Shown here: positions 11,198 through 29,409 of the stretch, piece after piece
Layout of the letters: the number at the start of each line of letters is the position of its first letter
Position numbering within the stretch: position 1 is the stretch's first letter
Assembly: GCA_014238055.1 (NCBI GenBank)
Contig: JABABV010000001.1
Coordinates: forward strand, 248,938 to 286,406
Direction of reading: 5' to 3'
DNA from: Mycoplasmatales bacterium
GTDB taxonomy: Bacteria > Bacillota_I > Bacilli_A > Mycoplasmatales > JABABV01
Length of the DNA: 37,469 nucleotides
The notes under the pieces: model-generated
Told to the model about the DNA's origin: nothing
What the model saw: only the letters and a program-made list of their open reading frames with translations
The model's database searches: none
Translations under genes and position numbers: made by a program

Positions 11198-13614
<2,417 letters not shown>

Positions 13615-19700: not shown

Positions 19701-20541
19701 TTTCTTTTTTGGTAGAAAAAACATATTTATTAATAGCGTGTTCGATACCGTGGTCATTATTATTTTTAGTAATCTCATCAGATATCGCTTTAACTTCAGG
19801 TAAAGCATTTCCCATGGCGATTCCTAAATTAGCTAATTTTAACATTTCAATATCATTTTCAGAATCACCAATAGCAACTAAGTTATCAGGTGATAATTTC
19901 ATAGATTCAAGAATTTTTAATATTCCAGTACTTTTATTAATACCTTTAATGCAAAATTCAACAGCACGATCACTACCACGAACAACATAAACAACGTCAG
20001 CAAAACGTGTTTTCATCATTTTAGAAATTTTAGCAGCTCTCTTAACATCGTCAAAATAAATAATTACTTTAACTATATTGTTGTTTTCAATAAAATCTTC
20101 AACATTGTCATCGCTAAGATGAGTTTTGAACTCACCGTAAAATCCTTCAAATAATTGACGTGATTCTTTATCATTTTTATTATCATAAAGATAAGTTTCG
20201 TGTTCACCGTATAAAACAGCAGAAACACTAATTTCACTTAACGCTTTTAAAATTAATTTTGTAATTTTAACATCGTGAGATTGAGAATAAATTAATTTTT
20301 TATTAACAACATCATAAATTTGAGCACCGTTACAACTAACGATATAATCGATTTTACCAATTGCTTCAGCTACGTGAACTGAATTACAATATGATCGTCC
20401 AGTACAAATAACAGTTTTAACACCGTGTTTTTGTAATTCTTGGACACTTTTAATTGTCGAATCTAAAATTTTACGATTATCTGTAATTAAAGTTCCATCA
20501 ACATCAAAAGCCATAATTTTATGTTCTTTATTTTTAACCAT
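19693..20541 (-). CDS. Cof-type HAD-superfamily phosphatase (HAD-IIB)
   Basis: The 282-residue hydrolase has the HAD nucleophile motif I in MAFDVDGTLI (about residue 10), motif II in VICTGRS, and motifs III/IV as the C-terminal Lys and GDSENDIEML with IAMGNA. The large alpha/beta cap between motifs II and III (about residues 85-195) marks the Cof/IIB group. Such enzymes dephosphorylate sugar phosphates, FMN-like compounds or nucleotides; the substrate cannot be named here. The start overlaps prs by 8 nt and the end overlaps pth by 8 nt. In Bacillus the interval between prs and pth is occupied by ctc; here the HAD gene takes that place. Confidence 0.9.
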   Translation of the reverse strand: MVKNKEHKIMAFDVDGTLITDNRKILDSTIKSVQELQKHGVKTVICTGRSYCNSVHVAEAIGKIDYIVSCNGAQIYDVVNKKLIYSQSHDVKITKLILKALSEISVSAVLYGEHETYLYDNKNDKESRQLFEGFYGEFKTHLSDDNVEDFIENNNIVKVIIYFDDVKRAAKISKMMKTRFADVVYVVRGSDRAVEFCIKGINKSTGILKILESMKLSPDNLVAIGDSENDIEMLKLANLGIAMGNALPEVKAISDEITKNNNDHGIEHAINKYVFSTKKENE

Positions 20542-21526
20542 GTTTTTTAATGCTTTCTTTAATTTCTTCGATAATTAATTCGTATTCTTTTGAAATTGAT
20601 TTATTTTCCATCGTTACTTTAATCGTTTTAGCTAGAAAAGGCGCTACTGAAACTATGTTTAATTTATCAAATTTTTGTTCTTTTGAAACTGCTATCGTAT
20701 CAGTAATAACAACTTCCGTTGCTGGAGAATTAGATAATCTTTCTTTAGCAGGCCCTGAAAGTACTCCATGAACTGCTGCGATATAAATATCTTCTGCACC
20801 GATTTCTTTAATTTTTTCAGCTGCCTTAACAATAGTTCCGGCAGTGTCAATCATATCATCAATAATAATACAATTGTAACCTTTAACCTCACCTAAAATT
20901 CCCATTATTTCTGATTGATTTGGTCCGTTACGACGTTTATCAATAACAGCAACTTTAGCATCAAAAATATCAGCTAAAATACGTGCTCGTGATACTCCAC
21001 CTTGATCAGGGGCAACGATCACTAAATTTTTAATACTTTTTTTAGCAAAATATTCCATTAAAACGAATAGACCTTTTAAATCATCTACTGGCATATTAAA
21101 AAATCCTTGAATTTGAGGAGAATGAAAATCGAATGTTATTAATCTAGTCGCACCAGCTGTTTCTAATAAATTAGCAACTAGTCTTGCGGTAATCGGTTGA
21201 CGACCATGAACTTTACGATCTTGACGGGCATATCCATAATAAGGATTAATAACATTTATCGATGATGCTCCTGCTCTTTTTAAAGCATCCATAAAAATTA
21301 ATAATTCCATTAAGTTATCATTAACTGGTTTATTTGTTGATTGAAAAACATAAACATCTTTATTTCGAACAGAATCAGCGGCTACAGTTAAAACTTCACC
21401 ATCAGCAAATTTTGTTATTTTAACTTTACTTAAAGGCATTTCAATAATTTTTGCCGTTTTAGAAGCTAATTCTTCCGAGGCCGATAGAGCGAATAAAACA
21501 GATTCTTTTTTACAATGGTTAATCAT
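20534..21526 (-). CDS. prs: Ribose-phosphate pyrophosphokinase (PRPP synthetase)
   Basis: Prs makes PRPP from ribose 5-phosphate and ATP; PRPP feeds Hpt. Its 330 residues are complete, with no in-frame TGA. Recognisable elements are the ATP flap region FADGEV, NPYYGYARQDRK, the catalytic VVAPDQGGVSRA with Lys-Arg in VIDKRR, and the PRPP loop CIIIDDMIDTAGTI. ATG at 21526 follows AAAAGGAG that overlaps the end of the GlmU-like gene. The glmU-prs adjacency is the same as in Bacillus (gcaD-prs). Confidence 0.96.
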   Translation of the reverse strand: MINHCKKESVLFALSASEELASKTAKIIEMPLSKVKITKFADGEVLTVAADSVRNKDVYVFQSTNKPVNDNLMELLIFMDALKRAGASSINVINPYYGYARQDRKVHGRQPITARLVANLLETAGATRLITFDFHSPQIQGFFNMPVDDLKGLFVLMEYFAKKSIKNLVIVAPDQGGVSRARILADIFDAKVAVIDKRRNGPNQSEIMGILGEVKGYNCIIIDDMIDTAGTIVKAAEKIKEIGAEDIYIAAVHGVLSGPAKERLSNSPATEVVITDTIAVSKEQKFDKLNIVSVAPFLAKTIKVTMENKSISKEYELIIEEIKESIKKHG

Positions 21527-21530
21527 TATT

Positions 21531-22139
21531 TTATAACTCCTTTTCAGTTATTTTTTGAACTCTTGCAAATACTTTAGCTGGTTTTTTAATATCTTTTGTA
21601 ATGGTTGATCCGGCTGCTATAATTACGTTATTACAAATATTAATCGGCGCTATTAAAGAAGCATTACTTCCAATTAAAGAATTAGGTCCTACTGTAGTTT
21701 CGTGACAAGCACCTTCATTATAATTAGCAGTAACTACTCCGGCACCAATTGTTGTATTTTGACCAATAATAGCATCTCCAATAAAACTTTTATGACCAAT
21801 TATAACTTTATTATTAATAGTTGAATTTTTAACTTCACAATATGGACCTACTAAAGTGTTATTTAAAATTTTTGTATTTTTTCTTAAAAATGCATAAACA
21901 CCAATTAAGTTTTCATTGCCAATATGAACATCTTCAATAACACTGCCCATTTGAATAGTATTTTTATTACCAATATTAGTGTTACCCATTATATAAACAT
22001 TGGGATAAATAACATTTTCATTACCAATACAAACGCCTTCAGTGATAAAAACTTTTTCAATATCTATAAATTGATCTAATTTATTTTTAAATTTATTTTT
22101 TAATTCTTCTGAACTAAGGAATATCGGTCTTTTAACCAT
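21531..22139 (-). CDS. Stand-alone GlmU-type left-handed beta-helix acetyltransferase domain
   Basis: At 202 residues this is only the C-terminal half of bifunctional GlmU (about 455 residues). The uridyltransferase domain is absent: residues 1-30 do not carry its LAAG-GTRM loop. Hexapeptide repeats (for example IGNENVI, MGNTNIGNKN) fill residues 35-180. Catalytic positions of the acetyltransferase look conserved by eye against E. coli GlmU: Arg in YAFLRK (R333), Lys in CEVKNS (K351), His in IGHKSFIGDA (H363), then TTIGAGVVTANYN and APINI. So it probably still acetylates glucosamine 1-phosphate. It sits directly before prs, exactly where glmU lies in Bacillus, which supports descent from glmU. 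ATG at 22139 follows TTGGAG. A generic serine/other O-acetyltransferase is a less likely alternative. Confidence 0.8.
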   Translation of the reverse strand: MVKRPIFLSSEELKNKFKNKLDQFIDIEKVFITEGVCIGNENVIYPNVYIMGNTNIGNKNTIQMGSVIEDVHIGNENLIGVYAFLRKNTKILNNTLVGPYCEVKNSTINNKVIIGHKSFIGDAIIGQNTTIGAGVVTANYNEGACHETTVGPNSLIGSNASLIAPINICNNVIIAAGSTITKDIKKPAKVFARVQKITEKEL

Positions 22140-22221: not shown

Positions 22222-23031
22222 TTAAAATATAACTTTTATTTTACTTGGATTAAACATTAAATAACTAGATCCGCTACCAGTTAATAAATATTTAAATTTT
22301 TGATTTTTATATTTTAGTGGAGAATATAATTTATTTACCGGCATCTCTAAATCATTAAAGGCTTTTTTCATAAAGAAAGGTGTTTTCTCTTTAAAATCGT
22401 GGAAAAAATCGCCAAAATTTGTTTGTGGTGGTGGCAGTAAATCAAAAACATCATAAATCTTTTTAGTATTGTGATTTTTCTTTGGCCTTAACAAAATATT
22501 TAAGCAATCTATTCCAGCATCACGATGACGATAAATAAATTTAATATTTGGAAAAGATAATTTTATTGGCTCAACAAATTCTCCATACATACCAACATAA
22601 CAACTTCCTCCTTCAACGAAAAAAGGAACATCGCTACCGATTTTAAATAACATTTCTTTTAATACTTCTTTTTCTCAAGGGATACCTAGTAACGTTGTAA
22701 TTATTTTTGTAGTAGTCACCGCATTAGAAGATCCGCCTCCTAAGCCTCCTCCTATCGGAATTTGCTTAGTAAGCTTAACATCAAAATAACACTTTATTTT
22801 ATAATGTTTTCTTAATAGATTTATTGCTTGTGAAATTGTATTTGGAAAACCTATTTTAGATATATTATAAAATCTATCTACATTTAGATTATTAATTTTT
22901 ATATCTAAAATATCATAAATATTTTTTCGTACTTCGATCATAATTGTTTTTAATTTATGCAATTTTTCATTAGCTAATTTCGGCATAACTCCTAGACCAA
23001 GATTAACTTTAGGGTAACTATACATTTCCAA
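22222..23031 (-). CDS. ispE: 4-diphosphocytidyl-2-C-methyl-D-erythritol kinase
   Basis: This GHMP kinase phosphorylates CDP-methylerythritol in the MEP isoprenoid pathway, using ATP. It has 269 residues, slightly short. The N-terminus YPKVNLGLGV matches the family's AKINLGL. The ATP loop is PIGGGLGGGSSNA (about residues 91-103), FFVEGG matches the substrate region and LLTGSGSS is the third GHMP motif. TGA at 22675 encodes Trp. The start is taken as TTG at 23031, nine nt after AAAGGAG; the ATG two codons later would be 15 nt away. It follows ksgA by 1 nt, the order tatD-rnmV-ksgA-ispE known in Bacillus. The other MEP genes are not in the window. Confidence 0.9.
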
Positions 23032-23032
23032 T

Positions 23033-23881
23033 TTAATCTACTCCTTTAAAAATATCAATTAATTGATTAGTCGTTAATTTTTCTGATCTAATATTTAAAC
23101 TAATATTATTTTTTTCTAACACAGTTTTTATTTTTTCAACTTCATAATAATTTTTTAAGTTATTAATTAAGGTTTTCCTTTTTTGAAGAAATGCTTTTTT
23201 AATAAAACTAATTATTTGTTTTTTATCTAAATTTACAAATTTATCAACTAATTTTATTTCGATAATTGCACTATCTACTTGTGGGATAGGTTGAAAATTA
23301 TCTTTATTTACATCAAATAAAATTTTTGTTTCACTATATAAATTCATGATATTAATAAAAGCATTATTTTTTTTAATGTCTCCAGTTAATTTATTGGCAA
23401 CTTCTTTTTGCACCATTAAAATCATTTTAGTAATTTTAATATTTTGGTTAATTAAAAATAATAAAATTGCTTTAGTAATATAATACGGTAAATTAGCAAT
23501 GACAACTATTTTATTATCGTTTTTAAAATTATCAAAATTATTTTTAAAAAGTTCTAAAAGATTAGTTTTCAAAATATCGGCATTAATAATTTTTGAATTA
23601 TCAAAATATTGACTAACTTCTTCTCGCAATGCAGGTATTAAATCATTATCGATTTCAACACTTAAAATTGGAAGTTTAGTTTTTGCTAATTCTCAAGTTA
23701 AAGCTCCAATTCCAGGACCTATTTCTAATACAAAATTATCATCATTTAACTTTGCTTCTGTAACTATATTTTCGATTATATTATTATTAATAATAAAATT
23801 CTGCCCTAATTTTTTACGAGCATGTAAATTATATTTATTTAAAATTAAATTAGTTCTTTCGACTGTAGCAATTGCTTTCAT
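23033..23881 (-). CDS. ksgA: 16S rRNA dimethyladenosine transferase KsgA (RsmA)
   Basis: KsgA dimethylates two adjacent adenines near the 3' end of 16S rRNA late in small-subunit assembly. It has 282 residues. ARKKLGQNFI, the SAM site FVLEIGPGIGALT, VEIDNDL and the catalytic NLPYYIT are all present, as is the C-terminal helical domain with FLQKRKTLINNL. TGA at about 23693 encodes Trp after GALT. ATG at 23881 is preceded by AAAAAAGAGG. The stop at 23033 is 1 nt from the ispE start codon, so the two are surely co-translated. Confidence 0.95.
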
Positions 23882-29001: not shown

Positions 29002-29409
29002 GGGGATGTACTGGATTCGACATGGCCTAACATTAATATTTTATGCAGTGGTTTCGCAAACCTAAATGCTCGAGGTTCATTTTAAATGGAAACTCTAAAA
29101 AAGAAACCGTTCCTACATATATGCTAAATAACGCGTCATCTTCAATGATGATGTCTGCAATGGCGTAATTGGTCTTTAACTAAAGATCGGAACCGTTAAG
29201 TTAAATTTGTCCTAGGTTTTTCTTAATGTTTTAATAGGACTCGTAGTATATTTTTCTCAAAATATATTATTAAATTTTAGAGATAGCTATTTTTAAGTTT
29301 GATTATTTTTCTTAAAAATTAAGCGAACCTTTCAAATAATAATCTAAACTGTAGATGTAATTTATTAAGTAAGTCGTGGACCCGGGTTCAATTCCCGGCA
29401 TCTCCACCA
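29002..29409 (+). ncRNA. ssrA: Transfer-messenger RNA (tmRNA)
   Basis: This 408-nt tmRNA gene rescues stalled ribosomes by trans-translation. The 5' end GGGGATG pairs with CATCTCC before the encoded A-CCA end (one G-U pair). The T-arm GGACCCGGGTTCAATTCCCGG is clear, and the 5' block GGGGATGTACTGGATTCGAC is the conserved tmRNA opening. The tag reading frame most likely starts at the resume codon GGA (29088) and runs 26 codons to TAA (29166-29168). It begins GNSKKETVPT and ends SSSMMMSAMA; a Gly resume codon is also found in B. subtilis. The two other frames close early or lack a hydrophobic end. Long tags are known in mycoplasmas. The tail -MSAMA would have to be recognised by the organism's own proteases; FtsH is encoded in this window. 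Resume codon choice is inference. Confidence 0.95.

Follow-up and report, generated by a model that had tools for sequence, protein, structure and literature searches.

The window, by which we mean the whole stretch of 37,469 nucleotides that was analysed, carries at 21531..22139 on the minus strand a gene for a stand-alone GlmU-type left-handed beta-helix acetyltransferase of 202 aa. The frame opens with ATG, has a GGAGAT ahead of the start and contains no TGA codons. The gene prs (20534..21526, minus strand) begins 4 bases past its stop with an AAGGAG of its own. TGA is read as tryptophan in the flanking genes, which are broken under translation table 11 and intact under table 4. The genome amounts to 845 kb in 164 contigs, is 96.7% complete and belongs to an order of small genomes. 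The genetic code, the genome size and the placement in that order suggest that the host is wall-less. The frame is real, and it is confirmed as a stand-alone half of GlmU.

Identity and chromosomal place

The top NCBIfam model is GlmU itself (TIGR01173, 2e-43), and the match covers model positions 265–441 of 452, which is the C-terminal domain only. The sequence-only reading had described the gene as GlmU with just its beta-helix half left, and this is what is found: the frame begins at the beta-helix, and the N-terminal uridyltransferase domain is missing. No remnant of that domain was found in the three minus-strand frames of the 82-base gap to ispE. The TIGR01173 score (148.9 bits) falls below the curated cut-off of 366.85, as is to be expected of half a GlmU. 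The hexapeptide repeats are recognised by Pfam Hexapep at 6.4e-25. All eleven top NCBIfam models are GlmU, followed by an archaeal GlmU-type model at 6.6e-19 and then a NeuD-type sugar acetyltransferase at 1.7e-18, and the top match among PDB sequences is again GlmU (E 1.5e-29). A best match to maltose or serine O-acetyltransferases had been named beforehand as the result that would speak against GlmU; at the sequence level, the comparison came out for GlmU, since the best NCBIfam and PDB sequence matches are both GlmU.

Other identities were considered and rejected. Serine acetyltransferase appears among the PDB sequences at 1.7e-4 versus 1.5e-29 for GlmU, and the chloramphenicol-type acetyltransferases appear in NCBIfam at 4.4e-7 (CatB) and 2.8e-7 (WcaB) versus 2e-43. 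Membership in the GNAT family of Gna1 and GlmA was set aside on the hexapeptide beta-helix repeats, and no GNAT family is among the Pfam matches up to an E-value of 1. A single-sequence structure model was poor (pLDDT 62.9), and a PDB fold search gave no matches at E ≤ 0.001.

The gene order in the window is rnmV-ksgA-ispE-X-prs-(HAD)-pth, where X is the acetyltransferase gene. Upstream of X on the same strand lie an ispE-like GHMP kinase gene (22222..23031) and ksgA (23033..23881), a member of the conserved block that was named by eye and by its match to relatives; downstream, prs marks the glmU place. A class relative (G323, locus L080) has a fused 459-aa glmU in the order rnmV-ksgA-ispE-(116 aa)-glmU-prs-pth, its neighbour genes being named by eye from their first residues. 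The location between ispE and prs, which had been taken for the ancestral glmU place, matches the position of this fused gene. The ispE-like kinase itself falls well short of the ispE cut-offs, with 119 versus 321 bits and 98 versus 139 bits.

Elsewhere in the order, X adjoins prs in four genomes of family f8 (L028, L031, L032 and L034). Three of these have the block mnmE-tatD-ksgA-X-prs, and the contig of the fourth ends just past ksgA-X-prs. Ten genomes of family f3 have the gene at other loci, where its neighbours are dnaN/gyrB, pheT/ackA, rnmV/prs with a DpnII-type restriction gene set, RNase J or dnaG. The neighbours of the relocated copies gave no hint of a pathway. In genus g42, acetate kinase follows the gene at a distance of 2 bases (L033:7732-9500, L040:1598-3243).

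The mollicute clade and its acceptor pocket

Matches at E ≤ 0.001 occur in 19 of the 320 genomes of the order. Fifteen of them, the window's included, are strong and near full length; the weak partial matches in G153, G156, G200 and G208 were left out of the 15. All 15 homologues are best matched by GlmU profile models, and none is fused to a uridyltransferase, because their open frames are at most 232 aa. They form a single clade with a branch support of 100/97, and all 200 bootstrap trees recover it. The window's protein is on a long branch, and its placement within the clade is unsure. Stand-alone GlmU C-domains also occur outside the order in the same class, in G364 (locus L079, 214 aa), G393 (L049, 206 aa) and G447 (L057, 203 aa), and these branch separately from the mollicute clade. 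The reference set comprised 31 GlmU: 30 class sequences, these three stand-alone proteins among them, and E. coli K-12. The class sequences are the loci of the 29 best matches outside the order together with G364. Duplicate rows (L075–L078 and L080, equal to L049, L057, L052, L045 and L047) were dropped before the tree and the residue counts, and L052 is cut off at a contig end.

Residues were surveyed over E. coli GlmU positions 250–450 in the 15 mollicute homologues and the 31 GlmU. Twenty-five positions are invariant in all 31 GlmU, and nine of the 25 are invariant in all 15 homologues as well. R333, E349, H363 and N386 are kept in 15 of 15. The corresponding minus-strand codons in the window are those of R86 (21882..21884), E102 (21834..21836; the catalytic partner of the His), H116 (21792..21794; the catalytic His) and N139 (21723..21725). 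The catalytic Arg, Lys and His that the sequence-only reading had thought conserved are indeed present in the window's protein as R86, K104 (codon 21828..21830, minus strand; E. coli K351) and H116. Loss of the catalytic His, which would have told against that reading, is seen in none of the 15.

The remaining pocket residues have fared differently. K351 and Y366 are each kept in 4 of 15, Y387 and K392 each in 3 of 15, and N377 in 1 of 15; K351, Y366, N377 and K392 are invariant in 31/31 GlmU. L364 is kept in none of the homologues, being Lys in nine, Arg in five and Gln in one. A Lys or Arg directly after the catalytic His is thus found in 14 of the 15 versus none of the 31 GlmU, although Leu at this position is not universal in GlmU, since the PDB GlmU 5vmk has Phe. 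V348 has become Cys in 10 and Ser in 4 of the 15, and 8 have His at position 347, where GlmU has Phe or Tyr. The window's protein carries L364K (K117, 21789..21791), Y366F (F119, 21783..21785), N377T (T130, 21750..21752) and K392C (C145, 21705..21707), all codons on the minus strand. It keeps K351 and Y387, two of the five pocket residues, and is among the least altered homologues. The stand-alone proteins of G364, G393 and G447 keep K351, Y366, N377, Y387 and K392, so the pocket change is not a mere result of losing the N-terminal domain.

We take R333, K351 and K392 to be phosphate-binding residues of GlmU and N386 and Y387 to have active-site or pocket roles. According to the accessible parts of the papers concerned, E348 and H362, the equivalents of E. 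coli E349 and H363, are described as key to catalysis in the GlmU of S. aureus and S. pneumoniae (PMC11947611), and Y366 and N377 are treated as GlmU active-site residues in a docking study (PMC3146400). The accessible part of PMC6652808 has the M. tuberculosis equivalents of F347, V348, L364 and Y366 lining an inhibitor site, by docking and mutants, and the F347 equivalent changed to Ala giving an inactive enzyme; the numbering offset of 11 between E. coli and M. tuberculosis GlmU is our own assignment. A contact list for GlcN-1-P in GlmU was not found in the literature searched, which included the accessible part of PMC6710349. As judged from the alignment, the predicted catalytic core is intact and the predicted acceptor pocket is remodelled across the 15-member clade. 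The pocket substitutions favour a changed acceptor or binding mode. For the window's protein, descent from GlmU, the ancestral place and the retained catalytic core are supported.

It had been argued that selection must act on the gene, and this holds for the related copies in five comparisons with dN/dS (Nei–Gojobori) of about 0.10–0.26. The values are about 0.12 (g28, L031/L032), 0.18 (L031/L034), 0.10 (g46), 0.26 (g48) and 0.22 (g42), at dS near or above 0.9, and the pairs are of relatives and not of the window's own copy. For comparison, prs and ksgA are at about 0.07–0.08 in L031/L032, and dnaN is at 0.03 in g46. The acetyltransferase gene in the relatives is under purifying selection, somewhat relaxed.

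Amino-sugar enzymes of the holders

The sequence-only reading had proposed either UDP-GlcNAc synthesis with a separate uridyltransferase or acetylation of a new substrate, and had pointed to glmS, glmM and a stand-alone uridyltransferase as the genes to look for. In the window's genome, there is no GlmS match and no SIS-domain match, and neither a GlmM-type mutase nor a GlmU-type uridyltransferase was found among the genome matches. The nucleotidyltransferases present are GalU (369 bits, over the cut-off), a LicC-like protein and a D-ribitol-5-phosphate cytidylyltransferase. In the sole phosphohexomutase, the mutase part scores 202 bits against an archaeal GlmM cut-off of 439 and 108 bits against a bacterial one of 448, and the mutases of eight other holders are also far below the GlmM cut-offs. 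Mutase matches are present in 17 of 18 genomes; those of the eight holders and the window's were profile-scored, leaving out second copies in G093 and G305. Among the nucleotidyltransferases, profile scoring covered three of the window's genome, eight belonging to other holders and two of genomes that lie outside the order. Both nagA and nagB are over the cut-off in the window's genome, and its PTS protein has the GlcNAc type as best model at a score under the cut-off. That sole phosphohexomutase, which is complete, is fused to a lysylphosphatidylglycerol-synthase-like membrane domain in a 966-aa frame (L042:5012-7912, G000:C76) about 42–45 kb before the window. It adjoins GT4, nagB and nagA genes, and the fusion looks unusual.

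Five of the order's 320 genomes contain a full-length glmS over the curated cut-off, and each of them is a holder of the acetyltransferase (G294, G296, G297, G299 and G304). The other 94 genomes with glmS matches are all below the cut-off. A nagA match (E ≤ 1e-20) is found in 168 of 320 genomes, including the other ten holders and none of the five with glmS, so each of the 15 holders has exactly one of the two enzymes. In eight of the ten, nagA is over its cut-off; in G227 and G228 it is under. With kinship left out of account, the chance figure for the five glmS genomes is 1.1e-7, and that for a source in all 15 is 7e-5; taking the seven genera as units raises the latter to about 0.013. The independent co-occurrence events are few because the holders are related. 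Since glmS and nagA both make GlcN-6-P, their co-occurrence with the gene points to a glucosamine phosphate as acceptor rather than an unrelated substrate. The gene nagB was seen only in the window's genome. In G296, genes for an ABC-2 exporter and a UDP-galactopyranose mutase are found no more than about 6 kb from glmS. Outside the order, two of the three genomes G364, G393 and G447 have a full glmS, and a matching uridyltransferase was not identified for them among the nucleotidyltransferase matches scored.

Candidate acceptors and possible surface glycans

The explanation that we favour, at a probability of about 0.4, is that the protein, the C-terminal half of a former GlmU, is an active N-acetyltransferase of hexosamines whose acceptor pocket has been remodelled and whose substrate is probably GlcN-6-P. 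The uridyltransferase half of the ancestral glmU would have disappeared early in the mollicute order, and the acetyltransferase half would then have been passed on vertically and lost many times. The protein would be a trimeric acetyl-CoA-dependent N-acetyltransferase in which, as in GlmU, the amine of a glucosamine phosphate gives up its proton to the His/Glu pair. The phosphate would be held differently, with K351, Y366, N377 and K392 mostly gone and a Lys or Arg beside the catalytic His. The most likely acceptor would be GlcN-6-P, giving GlcNAc-6-P; the one general sugar-phosphate mutase, together with GalU or an enzyme like it, would convert this product to UDP-GlcNAc, to be used in surface glycans or glycolipids. 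NagA, or NagB in reverse, would supply GlcN-6-P in the window's genome. GlcN-6-P is favoured because the anomeric-phosphate residues are eroded, a basic residue stands beside the His and a GlmM-type mutase was not found; going by the residue changes, it is probably the acceptor.

Acetylation of GlcN-6-P to GlcNAc-6-P is the step order of eukaryotic Gna1. Gna1 and bacterial GlmA are GNAT-fold glucosamine-6-phosphate N-acetyltransferases; the proposed reaction with acetyl-CoA would be the same, but the mollicute protein is a hexapeptide beta-helix by its sequence. A bolder form of the proposal, that the mollicute GlmU half was neofunctionalised to take GlcN-6-P and not GlcN-1-P, so that UDP-GlcNAc is made in the eukaryotic order without GlmM and without GlmU, is one we put forward tentatively and would not bet on. 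In those holders that have nagA, acetylation of GlcN-6-P would run counter to NagA, unless it were regulated or NagB working in reverse supplied the substrate.

No such futile cycle with NagA arises if the protein has remained an unchanged GlcN-1-P acetyltransferase, a reading that we consider unlikely though credible. GlcNAc brought in by the PTS would then be deacetylated by NagA to GlcN-6-P, converted by the mutase to GlcN-1-P, acetylated to GlcNAc-1-P and turned into UDP-GlcNAc by GalU or the LicC-like protein. Such a salvage route from GlcNAc to UDP-GlcNAc is known from E. coli. The window's genome contains nagA, a PTS of the GlcNAc type, a single mutase and galU. The catalytic residues are kept, the window's protein retains K351 and Y387, and the C-domain of M. 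tuberculosis GlmU is active in isolation according to the accessible part of PMC4619583. Against this, N377, K392, Y366 and K351, invariant in 31/31 GlmU, are mostly lost in the clade, and neither a GlmM-type mutase nor a GlmU-type uridyltransferase was found among the proteins scored. The GlcN-1-P reading retains some probability, most of all for the window's own protein. Either the GlcN-6-P or the GlcN-1-P route needs an amino-sugar mutase and a uridyltransferase, for which there are candidates only.

It is also conceivable, but distinctly improbable, that the acceptor is another amine: UDP-glucosamine, if GalU makes UDP-GlcN first, the amino sugar of a glycolipid or an unrelated small amine. 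The altered pocket might admit a larger acceptor, galU is in the window's genome, and some other beta-helix enzymes act on UDP-amino sugars. However, the link to glmS or nagA speaks for a simple glucosamine phosphate, and the gain of Lys or Arg at 364 suggests that the protein still binds a phosphate. A non-enzymatic beta-helix scaffold or a decaying remnant would fit the many drifted pocket residues and the presence of the gene in just 15 of 320 genomes, but is very improbable given R333, E349, H363 and N386 in 15/15, a dN/dS of about 0.10–0.26 in relatives and the keeping of the gene after relocation in one family.

Returning to the favoured hexosamine N-acetyltransferase, the mollicute proteins resemble the GlmU C-domain in their hexapeptide repeats, the four core residues, the chromosomal place and the best profile and PDB sequence matches. 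They differ in having no uridyltransferase domain, in the loss of most of K351, Y366, N377, Y387 and K392 and in the Lys or Arg at 364 in 14 of 15. They share the single-domain form with the proteins of G364, G393 and G447, and in G364 also the gene order ksgA-X-prs; those proteins, unlike the mollicute clade, keep all the GlmU acceptor residues, branch apart and in two of three cases come with a full glmS. GlmU itself is known; what appears to be new is a predicted GlmU-descended single-domain acetyltransferase with a remodelled acceptor pocket. No description of such an acetyltransferase in mollicutes was found in the literature searched, most subscription papers lying outside it. Half of a wall enzyme with its core intact and its pocket rebuilt across one clade would represent re-use after wall loss. 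The accessible part of PMC7725333 describes some mollicutes as making no monosaccharides at all, and the acceptor of this enzyme would tell which amino sugar the holder cells still make.

The glycosyltransferase (GT2) at 11198-12157, earlier suggested as a consumer of the nucleotide sugar, is a possible one. A cluster with GT4, LicD and ribitol-phosphate genes lies elsewhere on the contig, its GT4 resembling glycolipid glucosyltransferases, and the LicD-type transferases and the GT4 of that cluster are possible consumers as well. The ribitol set (L042:17141-18863 and L043:3296-6757, G000:C76) encodes a ribitol-phosphate cytidylyltransferase and a likely TarJ-type dehydrogenase, the latter named by eye and matched just weakly in NCBIfam. 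Near it are two confirmed LicD genes, a third LicD-like frame recognised by eye and a LicC-like nucleotidyltransferase. Together, the ribitol, LicD and LicC genes look like a teichoic-acid-like decoration set in a mollicute-like genome. The window also contains a tmRNA at 29002-29409 with a long predicted tag of 26 residues.
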